A stretch of 41,256 nt of DNA, from assembly GCA_945947045.1 (NCBI GenBank), contig CAMEXG010000003.1:1-41256 (forward strand), in the 5' to 3' direction. Below, piece by piece: positions 2,640 through 29,286 of this stretch; position 1 is the stretch's first letter, and each line of letters begins with the position of its first letter. The stretch comes from an uncultured Spirochaetales bacterium (GTDB taxonomy: Bacteria > Spirochaetota > Spirochaetia > Sphaerochaetales > Sphaerochaetaceae). The position numbers and the translations under genes are program-made. Below the pieces are notes generated by a model. The model was not told where the DNA came from. It ran no database searches and saw nothing but the letters and a program-made list of their open reading frames with translations.

Positions 2640-4346
2640 GTGGAAGAAAGTATTATTAGCTTCAAAAACTTTGGTTTTAAGTATACAGCTCAGGCAGAGC
2701 CTACTCTAAAAGGAATCAATTTAGATATTCACAAGGGAGAGAAAGTTCTTATTTGCGGTCCATCCGGCTGTGGTAAGTCTACTCTTTTTAATTGTCTTAA
2801 CGGACTTATTCCTGCTTCCTACTCCGGTGATGCCACAGGGGATCTGATAATCAAAGATAATAGCTTCAGGAATCTAGATATATTCTCTCTTTCCAAGATT
2901 ACTGGGACTGTCCTCCAGGACTCTGACGGTCAGTTTATAGGGCTGACTGTCGGCGAAGATATCGCTTTTGCAATGGAAAACGACATCGTACAACTGGAGG
3001 AAATGAAAGAAAGAGTTGTTGAAGCAGCAAAAAAAGTCGGGATAGAGTCATTCTTAGACCATGCTCCACATGAACTCAGCGGCGGACAGAAACAGAGGGT
3101 GTCCCTGGCTGGCGTCATGGTAGATGACGTAGAGATATTTCTTTTCGATGAACCCCTGGCAAATCTGGATCCTGCCTCAGGAAAGAAAACGATAGAACTG
3201 ATCGATCAGATTCATAAAGATACCGGAGCGACTATTATAATAGTAGAGCACAGAATCGAAGATGTTCTCCACTGCAGTGTAGATAGAGTCGTATTAATGG
3301 GTGAAGGCTCTATTATATTGGACACTACTCCAGATAAGCTTCTTTCTTCCGACTCCCTCATTAAGAATGGTATCAGGGAGCCTCTATATGTTACAGCTCT
3401 CAAATACGCAGGAGTCGAGATAAAAGAAGAAATGAAACCCGGAATGATCGACTCACTTATCCTAAGTAATCAAGACAAGCAGAAAATAAAAGAATGGATG
3501 GAGAGCATCCCCGACAAACCCCAGGTGGACGACAGACCTTTGTTATTGGAGACGAAGGATCTTTCTTTCAGCTACCCTAATGGAAAAAAAGCTCTGAAAG
3601 ATATCAACTTCTCTATAAAAAAAGGAGAGATGATGAGTATAGTCGGCCGTAACGGAGCGGGAAAGAGTACTTTCTGCAAAGTTATATGCGGTTTCGAGAA
3701 AGAGAGCGAGGGGAAAATCTATCTTAGCGGCAGCGACATATCGAATCTATCTATAAAAGAAAGGGCGGAGAAGATTGCCTACGTAATGCAGAACCCCAAT
3801 CAAATGATCACCAAGCCCATGATAAAGGATGAAGTGGCGTTGGGCCTTGTTCTGGATGGAAGATATAGCGAGGAAGAGATAAACAAAAGAGTCGACGAGG
3901 CATTAAAGGTATGCGGTCTCTATCCCTTTAGATCCTGGCCTATCAGCGCCCTATCCTTTGGACAGAAAAAGAGAGTCACAATAGCAAGTATACTTGTTAT
4001 GAGACCTCCTGTAATTATTCTCGACGAACCTACTGCAGGACAGGATTTCAGACACTACACCGCGATCATGGAGTTTTTGAAGAGCCTTAATGAAATGGGT
4101 TATACAATTATTCTCATTACTCACGACATGCATCTAATGATCGAGTACTCTGATAGGGCTGTAGTCTTCACTGAGGGAGAAATGATAGCGGATAGTAAAA
4201 GCGAGATGATTCTTACGGATGACGATCTTCTTGAGAAAGCCAGCCTAAAACGTACCAGTCTGTCTGATCTTGCGAAGCTTGTAGGCGTCGACGAAACCAT
4301 GTTTATTAGAAAGTTCATTAAGTTTGACAGGGAGGTGAGAAAATGA
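2640..4346 (+). CDS. ECF transporter duplicated ATP-binding protein (EcfA-A' fusion), GTG start
   Basis: Two ABC ATPase halves: GPSGCGKST/LSGGQKQRVSLAG and GRNGAGKST/LSFGQKKRVTIAS. Confidence 0.93.
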   Translation: MEESIISFKNFGFKYTAQAEPTLKGINLDIHKGEKVLICGPSGCGKSTLFNCLNGLIPASYSGDATGDLIIKDNSFRNLDIFSLSKITGTVLQDSDGQFIGLTVGEDIAFAMENDIVQLEEMKERVVEAAKKVGIESFLDHAPHELSGGQKQRVSLAGVMVDDVEIFLFDEPLANLDPASGKKTIELIDQIHKDTGATIIIVEHRIEDVLHCSVDRVVLMGEGSIILDTTPDKLLSSDSLIKNGIREPLYVTALKYAGVEIKEEMKPGMIDSLILSNQDKQKIKEWMESIPDKPQVDDRPLLLETKDLSFSYPNGKKALKDINFSIKKGEMMSIVGRNGAGKSTFCKVICGFEKESEGKIYLSGSDISNLSIKERAEKIAYVMQNPNQMITKPMIKDEVALGLVLDGRYSEEEINKRVDEALKVCGLYPFRSWPISALSFGQKKRVTIASILVMRPPVIILDEPTAGQDFRHYTAIMEFLKSLNEMGYTIILITHDMHLMIEYSDRAVVFTEGEMIADSKSEMILTDDDLLEKASLKRTSLSDLAKLVGVDETMFIRKFIKFDREVRK

Positions 4347-5173
4347 GCGGAGTATTTAATTATATTAATCGTAAATCCCCTATCCACACCCTTACAGGAG
4401 CTTCAAAGTTAATCGTTTTGATCCTATGGTCTTTGGCGGCAATGACCACATTCGATACGAGGCTCCTACTTGTTCTTCCTGTCTTTTCATTGATTCTCTT
4501 CAAGATATCAGGAATAAAATATAAAGACGTATCCTTCGTAATAAACTTTACTCTAGTCTTTATGATTCTCAATAATGTCCTGATCTTCCTATTTTCGCCT
4601 GAACATGGCGTATCTATATATGGAACGAGACATGTTGTCTGGAATGGAATCGGAAGATGGACAGTGACGAAGGAACAGCTCTTTTATCAGTTGAACGTAG
4701 TATTAAAGTATATTGCAACCATTCCTATAGTAATACTGTTTGTCTCCACTACAGATCCAAGCGAATTCGCCTCTTCTCTCAACAGAGTGGGAATAAGTTA
4801 TAAAATTGCATACTCCGTATCTCTCGCCCTCAGATATATTCCGGACATACAGAGAGAATACCACGAAATATCTGTTGCACAGCAGGCGAGAGGCTTGGAA
4901 CTGAATAAGGAAAAAGAAGGTCTGATCAAGAGGCTGAAGTGTGCTGCGACACTTCTATTTCCTCTCATCGTATCATCAATGGAGAGGATCGAAGTCATAG
5001 CAAATGCCATGGAGTTGAGAGGCTTCGGGAAGAATAAGAAGCGTACTTGGTACTCTTCCCGCCCATTCAGGAAAGGAGATTATTTAGCCATCATTGCTTC
5101 CAGTGCAATAATGCTCATCTCCATTCTTTTAAATGTTGTAAACGGAGGAAGATACTATAATCCTTTTATTTAA
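4343..5173 (+). CDS. EcfT-type (CbiQ family) transmembrane protein
   Basis: 276 aa membrane protein with the EcfT signature AQQARGLEL and ANAMELRGFG; overlaps the ATPase stop by 4 nt. Confidence 0.9.
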   Translation: MSGVFNYINRKSPIHTLTGASKLIVLILWSLAAMTTFDTRLLLVLPVFSLILFKISGIKYKDVSFVINFTLVFMILNNVLIFLFSPEHGVSIYGTRHVVWNGIGRWTVTKEQLFYQLNVVLKYIATIPIVILFVSTTDPSEFASSLNRVGISYKIAYSVSLALRYIPDIQREYHEISVAQQARGLELNKEKEGLIKRLKCAATLLFPLIVSSMERIEVIANAMELRGFGKNKKRTWYSSRPFRKGDYLAIIASSAIMLISILLNVVNGGRYYNPFI

Positions 5174-24674: not shown

Positions 24675-26002
24675 TATTTTTTCCTCCCCATCTTCTTTCC
24701 AAGTTTAAAGCCCTGGACAAGGTCAATGTGGGATGGACAAGAGAAAGAGCAACATCCGCACTCTTTGCAGTCCATGAGACCCAAGGCCATTGCTTCGGCA
24801 TAGTTGCCGTTCTTAATATTCCTAAACATTCTGTTCGGCATCAATCCCATGGGACAGTGCTGTACGCATTTACCACAGGAGACACAGGGGAAAGTCAGAC
24901 CTTTCTTTTTGTCAGGAAGAGCCAATAGACCGCCACTGCCCTTTACCATAGGAACACTTTCATCGGGGACATCGAATCCCATCATAGGTCCGCCGCTTAC
25001 AAGCTCATAAACTCCGTCTTTCATTCCGCCGCAGTATTCGATGAGGGAAGAGAAGGGAGTTCCGATAGGTGCAAGTATATTCTTAGGCTCGTTGATGCAC
25101 TCGCCGCTGACTGTGATTCTTCTTTCAAAAAGCGGCTTATGATACTTTACAGCCTCAAATATTGCATATGTGGTGGCAGTGTTGCAGACAATACAGCCGA
25201 TATCCAAAGGAAGTTTTCCAGAAGGAATCTCCCTTCCGGTTACAGCCTTCAAAAGCTGTTTCTCGTCTCCTTGGGGATACTTCATCTTCAAGGGCTGGAT
25301 TTCTATAGGGTAACCAAGTTCTTTTGCCCTCTTATCCAGTCTCTCGGCGGCGTCCATCTTGTTCATCTCAATACCGATGACGATTTTTTCCGGCTCGACA
25401 GCCTTCGCCGCAATCATTGCACCTTCCAATAGATCATCTGTATTCTCAAGCATCAAGCGATAGTCACAGGTGATATATGGTTCGCACTCCACGCCGTTTA
25501 TTACAAGGTATTCGACTTTTTTTCCTGTAGGTACAGAAAACTTGACGCTTGTGGGGAATGTAGCTCCACCCATACCGACAATTCCCATTTCCTTTACAAG
25601 TGCCTGAATCTCTTCCTTTGACTGACTTCTCCAATCAAAAGCAGTCTTGAAAGAATCAGGCTGCTCCTGGTCCGGCTTGATGACAAGAGTATCTGCATTG
25701 GCACCCGTAGCCAATCTGACCTTTCTTACATCGACGACACTCCCTGAAACAGGAGAATGCACGTCTGCAGAAATAAAGGATGAAGCCTTTCCGATCACTT
25801 CACCTTTTTCAACCCTGTCCCCTTTTGCCTTTAACGGAGTGGCAGGGGCTCCTAGATGCTGAGACATTGAGACGTATAACTCACCGGGAAGGGGAAGTCT
25901 CTCGACAGCTTTGTCTTTTGTGAGACGCTTCATATCATCCGGATGAACGCCGCCTCTTTTGAAAGTGGCAATATTTAACACAACTGACTCCTTTTTAGTC
26001 AA
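24674..26002 (-). CDS. rnfC: Electron transport complex subunit RnfC
   Basis: FKRGGVHPDDMK, GMGGATFPTSVKF, INGVECEPYITCD, CVSCGKCVQHCPMGLMPN. Confidence 0.95.
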   Translation of the reverse strand: MTKKESVVLNIATFKRGGVHPDDMKRLTKDKAVERLPLPGELYVSMSQHLGAPATPLKAKGDRVEKGEVIGKASSFISADVHSPVSGSVVDVRKVRLATGANADTLVIKPDQEQPDSFKTAFDWRSQSKEEIQALVKEMGIVGMGGATFPTSVKFSVPTGKKVEYLVINGVECEPYITCDYRLMLENTDDLLEGAMIAAKAVEPEKIVIGIEMNKMDAAERLDKRAKELGYPIEIQPLKMKYPQGDEKQLLKAVTGREIPSGKLPLDIGCIVCNTATTYAIFEAVKYHKPLFERRITVSGECINEPKNILAPIGTPFSSLIEYCGGMKDGVYELVSGGPMMGFDVPDESVPMVKGSGGLLALPDKKKGLTFPCVSCGKCVQHCPMGLMPNRMFRNIKNGNYAEAMALGLMDCKECGCCSFSCPSHIDLVQGFKLGKKMGRKK

Positions 26003-26213
26003 CTATCATTTATTGTATGGTAAAATGCAATTCAACGCAAACTAGAAAGTAGTTTACTGATTCTTTTGTATTTATTTGAACAAAAAGGAATTAATTAAAA
26101 AGTTTTATTCGCTAAATCTTTATTTTATTAAAAATCGACAGTACTTTTCATCTTTCCTTGTTTCATTGTCTGTGTTATTCTCAAGTCTGTATAAAAAAGT
26201 AAGGAGAATCGTC

Positions 26214-26273
26214 ATGGACGGAGACCCCGGTAGTACAAAGAAACATATAGTATCCGTCTGGAACATACTCTGA
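26214..26273 (+). CDS. Putative 19-aa leader peptide of mgtE copy 1 (MDGDPGSTKKHIVSVWNIL)
   Basis: SD AAGGAG (26201-26206), 7-nt spacer, ATG GAC GGA GAC CCC...CTC TGA. N-terminus related to the leader ORF before the second mgtE. Confidence 0.75.
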   Translation: MDGDPGSTKKHIVSVWNIL

Positions 26274-26306
26274 CAGTGGACCTGTTCCGACGGATAGGAG
26301 GAACAG
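26251..26306 (+). promoter_or_regulatory. Candidate translational attenuator of mgtE copy 1: mutually exclusive anti-sequestor and SD-sequestor helices
   Basis: Anti-sequestor TATCCGTC(t)GGAACA 26251-26265 with TGTTCCGACGGATA 26283-26296 (14 bp, 1 bulge). Sequestor CTGTTCC 26282-26288 with GGAACAG 26300-26306, covering the last GG of SD AGGAGG (26296-26301) up to the ATG. Confidence 0.7.
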
Positions 26307-27665
26307 ATGACAAAGAAAAAAGAAAAACAGCAGGTAAAACCTGTAGACAAGGTCGTTATCTCTCCATTGGCTTTTAGGAATGAACTTAATAAGCTGTCCA
26401 GAGAGGATTTATTCATTAGAATTTCTAATCTAGATGAAGATGACAGAAAGAAAGCTTGGACTCTTCTAAGCGACGCGAAATGTGCAGAAATAATAGAAGA
26501 CTCAGGATCTCCTGTCGAATGGTTTTTGGAAATGAGTACAAAAAAAGAGAGTGGCGTAATATCTGTAATGGATGAAGAAAAAGCCACGGATCTTCTCTCC
26601 CTATTAGACCAAGAGAAGAGAGTCATGGTGATGGAGATGTCTGGAAAAAGCTTTCAAAAACGCCTGAGATACTCACCAGATGAAGTGGGGTCCATAATGT
26701 CTGAAGACTTCATTCTCTTGGAAAAATCTACAACCGTAAAAGATGCTTTTGAGAAAATCAGGGAAGAAGCAGAAGGGAAAGATAACATAAGGACTATCTT
26801 TCTCACAGATAAGGGAGAAGGGCTCTATGGAGAAGTGGACCTTCTTGATATTCTACGCTCTCCAGGAGACCAGACACTATCTTCTGTAGCCACCACGTCG
26901 TTCCCATATGTCTCGGCAAGTGCAAAGCTTTCAAAGACATTGGAATGGATTAAGGATTACAACCTTTCTTCATTTCCTGTAATCGACGAAGAGGGAAAGA
27001 CAATAGGTGCTGTAACGAGACAGAGTCTTATGGATATTGTCGAGAGGGAGATGGAGGAAGACTACAGAAAGCTCGCTTCTATAGGAGAAGACAAGAATAT
27101 GGGAGTAATATCATCTATGAAGGCTAGACTTCCTTGGCTTTTTATACTGTTGGGCTTAGGAATCATCGTTTCTTCATCCATAGGTTTTCTCTCATCTTTA
27201 GCCATGGGTCTGGCAATGGTTTTCTCTTTCCAGTCTCTTATCCTCGACATGACGGGAAACTCTGGAACTCAGACACTGGCAGTGGCTGTAAGAGCTTTAT
27301 CAGGAAGGGATTTATCCTGGAAGGAGAAGCTGACAATGCTGAAAAAAGAGTCTGCTTCAGGCTTTATTTCAGGTCTAATTCTTGGACTGGGAGCAATATT
27401 GGTACTATTTCCATATATTTTTCTACGTAGTGGTAACGGAGCATTATACTCTTTAGCTCTTTCTGTATGTATCTCTCTTTCCCTAATACTGGCAATGACT
27501 CTTTCAAATACAAGCGGTGCGTTCATTCCTATTGTCATGGAGAAAATCGGTGTGGATCCTGCAGTGGCATCGGGACCACTTATTACTACACTAAGTGACC
27601 TTATAGGAGCCTCTTCATACTACACTCTCGCCTATTTAGTGTTGAAAAAGGTGTTCCACTATTAA
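26307..27665 (+). CDS. mgtE: Magnesium transporter MgtE (copy 1)
   Basis: MgtE N domain, CBS pair, TM domain with LDMTGNSGTQTLAVAVRAL and GVDPAVASGPLITTLSDLIG. Confidence 0.95.
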   Translation: MTKKKEKQQVKPVDKVVISPLAFRNELNKLSREDLFIRISNLDEDDRKKAWTLLSDAKCAEIIEDSGSPVEWFLEMSTKKESGVISVMDEEKATDLLSLLDQEKRVMVMEMSGKSFQKRLRYSPDEVGSIMSEDFILLEKSTTVKDAFEKIREEAEGKDNIRTIFLTDKGEGLYGEVDLLDILRSPGDQTLSSVATTSFPYVSASAKLSKTLEWIKDYNLSSFPVIDEEGKTIGAVTRQSLMDIVEREMEEDYRKLASIGEDKNMGVISSMKARLPWLFILLGLGIIVSSSIGFLSSLAMGLAMVFSFQSLILDMTGNSGTQTLAVAVRALSGRDLSWKEKLTMLKKESASGFISGLILGLGAILVLFPYIFLRSGNGALYSLALSVCISLSLILAMTLSNTSGAFIPIVMEKIGVDPAVASGPLITTLSDLIGASSYYTLAYLVLKKVFHY

Positions 27666-27749
27666 AAATTTAGAAAAAAGTATGGAAAACCTTAGTTGTT
27701 AAGGGTTAATATTTCTTTGGCTCAAGCCAAAAAATTTTAGGAGAAAAGA

Positions 27750-27839
27750 ATGGACGACGGTACTGGAAGTATAGTCAATTTAGGCGGTTCGGACAGCGAA
27801 GTTCCTCTGAGTTTCCGTCGCATTCGACGGCAGAGCTGA
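27750..27839 (+). CDS. Putative 29-aa leader peptide of mgtE copy 2 (MDDGTGSIVNLGGSDSEVPLSFRRIRRQS)
   Basis: SD AGGAG (27739-27743), 6-nt spacer, ATG GAC GAC GGT ACT GGA AGT ATA...AGC TGA. Not in the supplied ORF track because of its length. Confidence 0.75.
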   Translation: MDDGTGSIVNLGGSDSEVPLSFRRIRRQS

Positions 27840-27875
27840 GCAAGATGATCCGCCTCCAAAATCAAATAGGAGGTG
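27782..27875 (+). promoter_or_regulatory. Candidate translational attenuator of mgtE copy 2: multibranch anti-sequestor versus SD-sequestor
   Basis: Anti-sequestor AGGCGG 27782-27787 with CCGCCT 27850-27855, enclosing CTCTG/CAGAG and CCGTCG-catt-CGACGG. Sequestor CGCCTCC 27851-27857 with GGAGGTG 27869-27875, hiding the SD AGGAGGTGA. Confidence 0.7.
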
Positions 27876-27882
27876 ACGAAGA

Positions 27883-29286
27883 ATGGATCCGGAGATTCAG
27901 AGCGGCCAGCATCCTGATTATGTAGGCGAGCTCGTAGAGATAATCAAAAGTAACATCTCACCCATGGCCCTGAAAGAAAAGGTAATGGGTTATCATGAAA
28001 ATGATATTGCAGATGCCATGGACAGGCTTACCCCCGAAGACAGGGGGAAGTTATACCGAATCCTCGACTCTGAAACACTGGCTAATATTTTCGAATACAC
28101 TGAAAACATTTCGACATATCTAAACGAAATCAGTGTAAAGAAAAAAATAGCTGTTCTCAGTGATCTCGAGACAGATAAAGCTACAGAATACCTGAAATCT
28201 CTCCCTAAAGGAGAGAGGACCACTCTCATTGAGTTCATGGATGATGATGCAAGAAAAGACATTGCACTTCTAGCATCCTTCGATGAAGACGAAATCGGCT
28301 CGATCATGAGCACAAACTTCATTGAAATAAAAACCGGAACAAGCATAAAAGAGGCGATGAGGGAGCTTATCGAGCAGGCTGCAGAGAATGATAACATCCA
28401 GACAATTTATGTAGTGGATTCAAACGGCCTTTTTTATGGTGCAATTGATCTAAAAGACCTTATCAGGGCAAGGGAAGGCAACACAATAGATTCTATCGTC
28501 TCTACTTCCTACCCTTATGTGTATGCCCATGAGTTGATTGACGACACCATGAACAAAATCAAGGACTATGCAGAGGACTCTATTCCTGTTCTTGATCAAA
28601 CAAATAAGTTACTTGGTGTAATCACCAGCCAGGATATGGTCGAAGTCATCGACGACTCCATGAAAGACGACTATGCGAAGTTTGCTTCTCTTGGAGATGT
28701 TGAAGACTTAAACGAGACGGTTGGACAGAGTTTGAAAAAACGTCTGCCTTGGCTAACCATCCTGTTGTTCTTGGGTATGCTTGTTTCAACTGTTGTAGGT
28801 CTCTTTGACTTTGTTGCACAGAAGCTCTCGATTCTTATCGCCTTCCAGTCTCTCGTCCTTGGTATGACCGGTAACTCAGGAACCCAGTCCCTTGCCGTTA
28901 CTATCAGAGTCTTGACAGATGAGAACTTGACTACCATGGATAAATTGAAGTTAATGTGGAAAGAAACAAGAATTGGTTTTGGTAATGGCGCCATTCTTGG
29001 CCTTACATCCTTCTTGGTCCTAGGTCTTTACGTATATTTCTTCAAAGACCAAAGTCTTTTGTATTCTTTCAGCGTCTCAGGCTGTACAGCCATCGCTCTT
29101 CTTGTCTCTATGACCATGTCTACTGCAATGGGCACTGTAATTCCTATTTTCTTTAAGAAAATCGGGGTGGATCCCGCAGTGGCATCAGGACCACTTATCA
29201 CCACCGTAAACGACCTTGTGGCTGTCGTTACATACTACGGATTGTCTTATTTGTTACTAATACGGCTAATGGGATTCGGCCTTTAA
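27883..29286 (+). CDS. mgtE: Magnesium transporter MgtE (copy 2)
   Basis: Same domain layout as copy 1; LGMTGNSGTQSLAVTIRVL and GVDPAVASGPLITTVNDLVA. Confidence 0.95.
   Translation: MDPEIQSGQHPDYVGELVEIIKSNISPMALKEKVMGYHENDIADAMDRLTPEDRGKLYRILDSETLANIFEYTENISTYLNEISVKKKIAVLSDLETDKATEYLKSLPKGERTTLIEFMDDDARKDIALLASFDEDEIGSIMSTNFIEIKTGTSIKEAMRELIEQAAENDNIQTIYVVDSNGLFYGAIDLKDLIRAREGNTIDSIVSTSYPYVYAHELIDDTMNKIKDYAEDSIPVLDQTNKLLGVITSQDMVEVIDDSMKDDYAKFASLGDVEDLNETVGQSLKKRLPWLTILLFLGMLVSTVVGLFDFVAQKLSILIAFQSLVLGMTGNSGTQSLAVTIRVLTDENLTTMDKLKLMWKETRIGFGNGAILGLTSFLVLGLYVYFFKDQSLLYSFSVSGCTAIALLVSMTMSTAMGTVIPIFFKKIGVDPAVASGPLITTVNDLVAVVTYYGLSYLLLIRLMGFGL

Follow-up and report, generated by a model that had tools for sequence, protein, structure and literature searches.

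In this study, we describe two short open reading frames (ORFs) located upstream of two adjacent genes for MgtE-type transporters (mgtE1 and mgtE2) in a 41,256-nucleotide (nt) stretch of DNA from an uncultured gut Spirochaetales bacterium (contig CAMEXG010000003.1 of assembly GCA_945947045.1, hereafter the window). Both transporter genes encode PF01769, CBS, and MgtE_N domains, and each upstream ORF (uORF) possesses its own Shine-Dalgarno (SD) sequence, encodes a peptide with an acidic start, and can pair with sequences that hide or release the SD of the following gene. Based on sequence comparison and modeled folding, the two leaders are probably ribosome-based Mg2+ sensors that control the synthesis of MgtE1 and MgtE2, similar in kind to MgtL, CorL, and MgtQ. 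Comparable uORFs precede many other mgtE genes as well as the unrelated Mg2+ importer gene corA.

Leader ORFs and alternative helices in the window

On both strands of the window, only two SD-equipped short ORFs have an acidic residue at position 2 and a second acidic residue or a proline by position 7, and both lie before mgtE, with 33-43 nt between the uORF stop and the transporter gene. The same mgtE pair is found in four other species of the genus (94-97% identity for MgtE2 and 77-89% for MgtE1), and both leaders are present in all four. Among the five species, codons 1-7 of leader 1 show silent changes only (CCC/CCT, GGT/GGC/GGA), and the residues of codons 8-19 change freely; leader 2 has no change in codons 1-10 and, in codons 11-20, one residue change and four silent ones. 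The proposal of the first-pass annotation that these are real leader peptides under peptide-level constraint is supported by this conservation and by the silent changes in leader 1, and both uORFs are presumably translated.

Leader 1 contains four regions (Table 1), of which region 2 can pair with region 1 (1:2) or region 3 (2:3), and region 3 with region 2 or region 4 (3:4); the motif GACGGA is present in both regions 1 and 3, and either copy can pair with region 2. Sequestor 1 (26282-26306) is a 7-base-pair (bp) helix of CTGTTCC (26282-26288) and GGAACAG (26300-26306) closed by the 11-nt loop GACGGATAGGA, and sequestor 2 (27851-27875) is formed by CGCCTCC (27851-27857) and GGAGGTG (27869-27875) around the 11-nt loop AAAATCAAATA, both exactly as first annotated; one of the seven pairs of sequestor 2 is G-U. 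The core of sequestor 1 (26284-26306) and the anti-sequestor 2:3 hairpin have z scores of -4.0 and -3.0, respectively, with 0 of 200 shuffles as good in each case; the whole leaders fold no better than shuffles (z=-0.7).

In the predicted fold of leader 1 alone, without a ribosome, the 1:2 and 3:4 helices form with probabilities of 0.95 and 0.96. When a 30-nt ribosome footprint is placed with its peptidyl (P) site at codons 1-8, the predicted probability of 2:3 is 0.73-0.95, and with the P site at codons 9-18 that of 3:4 is about 1; therefore, the mgtE1 SD is predicted to be free only during ribosome occupancy of the codons for MDGDPGST. These calculations were performed on the leader alone, as an earlier run with long flanks was dominated by pairing to flanking sequence. 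Upstream of leader 1, the blocks ATTCGCTAAATCTTTATTTTATTAAAAA and TGTGTTAT (26107-26134 and 26171-26178) are conserved in all five species and possibly represent a promoter or regulator site.

In leader 2, whose acidic and proline residues are D2, D3, D15, E17, and P19, the SD-hidden state dominates the predicted folding, the 1:2 pairing is absent from the predicted minimum-energy fold in species G000, and the six-pair anti-sequestor also appears partly with the ribosome at codons 5-7 in some species. The matching anti-sequestor arm claimed for each uORF in the first-pass annotation is strong in leader 1 (14 pairs) and reaches only six pairs in leader 2; region 1 of leader 1 and the corA leaders described below were not part of that annotation. 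Just before the SD of leader 2, a hairpin (TTTGGC-tcaa-GCCAAA, 27718-27733) with no T run after it is kept in other species, including a paired change (TTAGC/GCTAA) in G004.

Table 1. Positions of the leader elements and transporter genes in the window
Feature	Position	Strand	Evidence
SD AAGGAG of leader ORF 1	26201..26206	+	sequence; invariant in 5 species
Leader ORF 1, MDGDPGSTKKHIVSVWNIL, 19 amino acids (aa), acidic/proline start D2-G-D4-P5	26214..26273	+	codons 1-7 with silent changes only, 5 species
Leader 1 region 1, GACGGA, uORF codons 2-3, pairs with region 2	26217..26222	+	pairs invariant in 5 species; P(1:2)=0.95 in free RNA
Leader 1 region 2, anti-sequestor 5' arm TATCCGTC-t-GGAACA, within uORF codons 13-18	26251..26265	+	14 pairs with region 3; 98.6% of cells paired, 5 species
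Leader 1 region 3, TGTTCCGACGGATA; partner is region 2 (putative ON) or, with C26282, region 4 (putative OFF)	26283..26296	+	
Leader 1 region 4, GGAACAG, overlaps mgtE1 SD GGAGG (26297-26301)	26300..26306	+	
mgtE1, MgtE-type divalent cation transporter	26307..27665	+	PF01769 6.9e-28, CBS, MgtE_N
SD AGGAG of leader ORF 2	27739..27743	+	sequence
Leader ORF 2, MDDGTGSIVNLGGSDSEVPLSFRRIRRQS, 29 aa	27750..27839	+	first 10 codons identical in 5 species
Leader 2 region 1, GAATG-ga-CGACGG, over uORF start	27748..27760	+	11 pairs with 27815-27825; 96.4% of cells paired, 5 species
Leader 2 region 2b, AGGCGG, candidate anti-sequestor arm	27782..27787	+	6 pairs with CCGCCT 27850-27855, present in all 5 species with a single change, C-G to U-G
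Leader 2 region 2, CCGTCGCATTC, near uORF end; partner is region 1, or local hairpin CCGTCG/CGACGG	27815..27825	+	
Leader 2 region 3, CCGCCTCC; partner is region 2b or mgtE2 SD arm	27850..27857	+	
Leader 2 region 4, GGAGGTG, mgtE2 SD	27869..27875	+	P(3:4)=0.94 in free RNA
mgtE2, MgtE-type transporter	27883..29286	+	PF01769 2.7e-30

Acidic uORFs before mgtE and corA in the order

The order was sampled as a single family with 22 genera, and its mgtE genes were searched for a uORF with an SD, 15-45 codons, a stop 10-260 nt before the gene, and either an acidic residue 2 or Asp-Pro in the first 24 positions, a rule written after the first leaders had been seen. Such uORFs were found before 38 of the 56 mgtE genes, in 10 of 16 genera, versus 1 of 255 controls (Fisher test, 8e-34, with related genomes not independent); the controls were other genes of the same order, of all gene types, 113 of which are preceded by 120 nt or more of free sequence. 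Three MgtE2 relatives from a second genus have the leaders MEEGSSRRSVQPQNEDTVPLSRTVSLL, MEEGSSRNSVHHKVENTVPLSTVSS, and MEDSSRSTSDKVNLCKTAFSSAVL. Comparable uORFs lie roughly 90-230 nt upstream of the distant mgtE genes of the order, whose products share about 25-30% identity with MgtE2; they include MEAGSSRLFADSDPVPD.., MESADPGSSK.., MDSSDPGPGR.., MDTDPLSSL.., and MDTDPGSC.., along with ..KADGDDPLSRLF, ..SVSEDPLSSR, and ..ISDDPLSRH. The common feature across the order is an early acidic residue, usually together with an acidic-proline cluster (GDPGS, DDPLS, ADPGS, SDSEVPLS, DSDPVPD), so that the motif MD[GD][DG]xGS, initially offered as the family signature, proved too narrow. In other spirochaete families, the mgtE leaders include MDDPDGSTDYH.., ..DSDPYSSK.., and ..DPDSDPDSSK... 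A conserved 35-codon ORF (MESEKLYYFTINILNKKEKTLPIPSGRCSMLLDKL) before mgtE in Borrelia-like genomes (L213 and L214, two genera) may be a leader, or it may be where another gene ends; the Borrelia-like uORF MESEKLYY.. upstream of mgtE was left out of the counts.

If the peptides sense Mg2+, the unrelated Mg2+ importer gene corA would be expected to carry them too, and corA was examined for this reason; in most congeners, corA is present and mgtE absent. All 45 canonical corA genes read in the order (20/20 in a first batch and 25/25 in a second) are preceded by a uORF that has an SD and two or more acidic residues among its first nine positions, compared with none of the 255 controls. These corA leaders (loci L252-L307) are acidic and mostly proline-bearing, with acidic residues and prolines alternating early, as in MDDGSYPLPENK.., MDEGSSVPLPEK.., MSTLDDGGSITPLPR.., MSDDSGSPLPR.., and MHTEDTVPLPERT... 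The genome of the window has only a divergent CorA-like gene, with such a leader absent in the upstream stretch read. A further uORF, MDGDSSDDNTCCC.. (MDGDSSDD..), lies before a CNNM/CorC-family gene in a metagenome-assembled genome of Clostridia (locus L065, minus strand, uORF at about 4690-4830 and gene at 3301-4611); this case was first counted as a control positive, and CNNM/CorC is another Mg2+-transport family. Because CorA and MgtE are unrelated magnesium importers, magnesium is likely the signal shared by the mgtE and corA leaders, and this assignment rests most strongly on the finding that corA has such uORFs as well.

Lachnospiraceae-type leaders and the phylogeny of MgtE

MgtE2 is 53-61% identical to Lachnospiraceae-type MgtE. 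In the phylogenetic tree, MgtE2 and the MgtE of the second genus are placed among Lachnospiraceae proteins, apart from other spirochaete MgtE (support is good for the nesting of the second genus but not for the exact position of MgtE2), a placement that makes transfer of mgtE between phyla likely. The branch of MgtE1 is long compared with MgtE2 (2.79 changes per column ahead of the three MgtE1 rows), which may reflect fast divergence or another origin.

A related serine/acidic leader, starting M-D-x-(S/D)..R-S and often located behind GAGGTGA, was recognized at 58 of 78 Lachnospiraceae-type mgtE loci in a selection guided by composition, and a fixed rule picked out 44 of 74 such genes versus 3 of 226 neighboring genes, the CNNM case among them. 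With the counts for the order, this places the family beyond the window locus, as the first-pass annotation had supposed. The Lachnospiraceae leaders share the motif MD..(S/D)S..RS and are acidic, serine-rich, and low in proline. The leader of genome G053 (MEDSSRSTSDKV) resembles the Lachnospiraceae leader MEDSSSRSMDKV of the same clade, and from this likeness between sequences we infer that the leader probably travelled together with mgtE. The conserved Arg codon near the leader start is CGA in 51 of 58 counts, versus 6.5% CGA among the Arg codons of the mgtE genes (loci L060-L136); one guess is that CGA is a slow codon prolonging a pause, and another is that it is fixed by RNA constraint.

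At the RNA level, duplex energies place the pairing of the uORF start region with its own uORF end in the top 5% relative to foreign partners in 34 of 58 leaders (7 of 58 for a control arm); these energies replaced an ungapped swap test of the helix arms, which gave only a modest difference. In one subgroup (n=19), 88.9% of cells pair, and both sides have changed in 11 cells, a number that none of 500 shuffles reached. A covariance model (R1) built from one Lachnospiraceae subgroup gave one match per genome in 10 of the 12 genomes given, with the two genomes without a match carrying the other leader type, and none in the window; in a survey of 200 genomes, it matched in only one new genome, again before mgtE, and since only 17 candidates per genome were scored, absence there means little. 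By eye, a hairpin followed by a T run was seen before mgtE in some Lachnospiraceae loci, so the output in those loci may be termination.

Probable ribosome-based sensing: precedents, proposed mechanism, and alternatives

Several enterobacterial systems provide precedents. In Escherichia coli, ribosomes translating MgtL drop off at low Mg2+ owing to its EPDP motif; acidic residues are needed within the first 30 aa, and proline strengthens the effect (PMC11282234). MgtL, which serves mgtA, resembles the window leaders in its acidic/proline start and downstream Mg2+ importer, but differs in its output, Rho-dependent termination. Leader 1 parallels in architecture mgtQ, an 8-codon uORF before Salmonella mgtB, in which Asp2 and Glu5 are required and alternative 1:2/3:4 (ribosome-binding site hidden) and 2:3 helices release the ribosome-binding site (PMC8092293); early acidic residues and a Mg2+ importer downstream are shared, as is, by prediction for leader 1, this helix scheme. 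Unlike mgtQ, the window uORFs are 19 and 29 codons long and themselves contain region 2, and their putative target, in the phylum Spirochaetota, is MgtE, which is not related to MgtB, a P-type ATPase. A uORF also occupies the corA leader of enterobacteria, where corL and corA expression are inversely related (PMC11552253); corL has few acidic or proline residues, whereas the spirochaete corA leaders are strongly acidic and proline-bearing. The mgtE motif of Thioalkalivibrio is likewise a structured leader upstream of mgtE, but it is a riboswitch candidate confined to one genus, with no uORF described (PMC11109978). Given the different phylum, the different transporter families, and the shortness of the peptides, convergence with MgtL, MgtQ, and CorL appears simpler than shared descent. 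Searches of the open-access literature, where a subscription paper may be missed, turned up no description of an mgtE leader peptide, uORF, or attenuation, including in spirochaetes and Lachnospiraceae. To that extent the first-pass claim of an undescribed family stands, although its principle is the one known from MgtL, CorL, and MgtQ; what seems new is that a system of this kind occurs at mgtE and beyond Enterobacteria, serves mgtE and corA alike, and has apparently been transferred along with the gene.

In the proposed mechanism, ribosomes at low Mg2+ would pause or break up on account of the acidic/proline stretches, namely D2-G-D4-P5 of leader 1 and both D2-D3 and D15-S-E17-V-P19 of leader 2, this destabilization being the putative sensing step. 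In untranslated leader 1, 1:2 and 3:4 would be paired and the mgtE1 SD hidden (OFF). At low Mg2+, a ribosome initiating, pausing, or aborting on codons 1-8 would cover region 1 and free region 2, which could then form the 14-bp helix with region 3 and release the SD (ON). With sufficient Mg2+, the ribosome would read through region 2 to the stop, blocking 2:3, so that 3:4 would hide the SD (OFF); control would thus run toward synthesis at low Mg2+. The same principle, with differing output structures, probably operates in other leaders of the family.

The window leaders display features of the MgtL/MgtQ type in having a short ORF with its own SD before a Mg2+ importer and acidic/proline residues within the first 30 codons. 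The core of the earlier idea, a sensing peptide coupled to a switch, holds, but several observations weigh against it. Mutually exclusive structures are clear for leader 1 in only two species (G000 and G003) and weaker in three (G004, G005, and G030), where a longer sequestor is favored at equilibrium, although co-transcriptional folding could still favor 2:3 there. The switch of leader 2 is weak; in all five species, it opens only partly (0.23-0.62), when the ribosome has just passed SDSEVPL and stands at codons 22-24. Neither window leader shows a double compensatory change in its helices among the five species. A crude simulation of SD release for 73 mgtE and corA leaders revealed no trend between early and late ribosome positions (p=0.39 for corA and 0.25 for mgtE). 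Such a uORF is absent from about one in three mgtE genes of the order, and many Lachnospiraceae leaders are poor in proline and carry a nearly fixed CGA codon that the model does not account for.

Alternatively, the conserved element may be an RNA aptamer, such as an unrecognized riboswitch for Mg2+ or another ligand, with the uORF incidental or part of the expression platform. The conserved and covarying helix between uORF start and end in Lachnospiraceae would suit an aptamer, as would one subgroup in which Arg is nearly always CGA, Ser nearly always AGT, and third positions vary no more than others; however, SD, start, and stop are present throughout with ATG, GTG, and TTG interchangeable, the changes in leader 1 are silent, third codon positions are the most variable in two of three Lachnospiraceae subgroups, and corA and mgtE leaders with unrelated nucleotide sequences encode peptides of the same chemistry. 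The absence of an Rfam match in the window also counts against an aptamer. The M-box (ykoK) riboswitch is a known Mg2+-responsive element of mgtE in Bacillota. Like it, the window leaders lie before mgtE, but at the Rfam gathering score no family, M-box included, matches the window; at E<=10, positions 25800-28300 gave only chance-level matches to unrelated families and no M-box; and no M-box was found in 20+20 mgtE loci of relatives, in line with the absence already noted at first pass. We consider an aptamer unlikely.

Classical attenuation, in which the leader would sense charged tRNA (Pro, Ser, or Arg) or the activity of elongation factor P rather than Mg2+, would account for the conserved proline and CGA/AGT codons, and proline-dependent control has been reported for mgtL (PMC6460261); yet what the leaders have in common is acidic residues, no single amino acid is abundant in them, and the targets are Mg2+ importers rather than biosynthesis genes, which leaves this explanation distinctly improbable. 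It is just as hard to credit that the uORFs only load or recycle ribosomes for the downstream gene without sensing, since such reinitiation, in keeping with the short uORF-to-mgtE spacing in the window and proposed for leaders in general (PMC4833913), leaves unexplained the restricted amino-acid composition, the specificity for Mg2+ importers, and the mutually exclusive helices of leader 1.

Returning to ribosome-based Mg2+ sensing, we lean toward a broader picture in which both MgtE and the unrelated CorA are controlled throughout Spirochaetota by an acidic/proline peptide sensor, and mgtE of Lachnospiraceae by a related serine/acidic peptide in place of the M-box, with the peptide kept while the RNA output varies, and with the sensor having moved between phyla together with mgtE. 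As far as the open-access literature found goes, Mg2+ sensing through ribosome stability has been demonstrated in enteric bacteria only. If the present interpretation is true, ribosome-based sensing would be a widespread and repeatedly used alternative to Mg2+ riboswitches, and the leaders would offer several dozen natural sequences for asking which nascent-chain features destabilize ribosomes, among them a version that has few prolines and an almost invariant CGA codon. It also predicts Mg2+ control of genes in bacteria without a recognized Mg2+ regulator.

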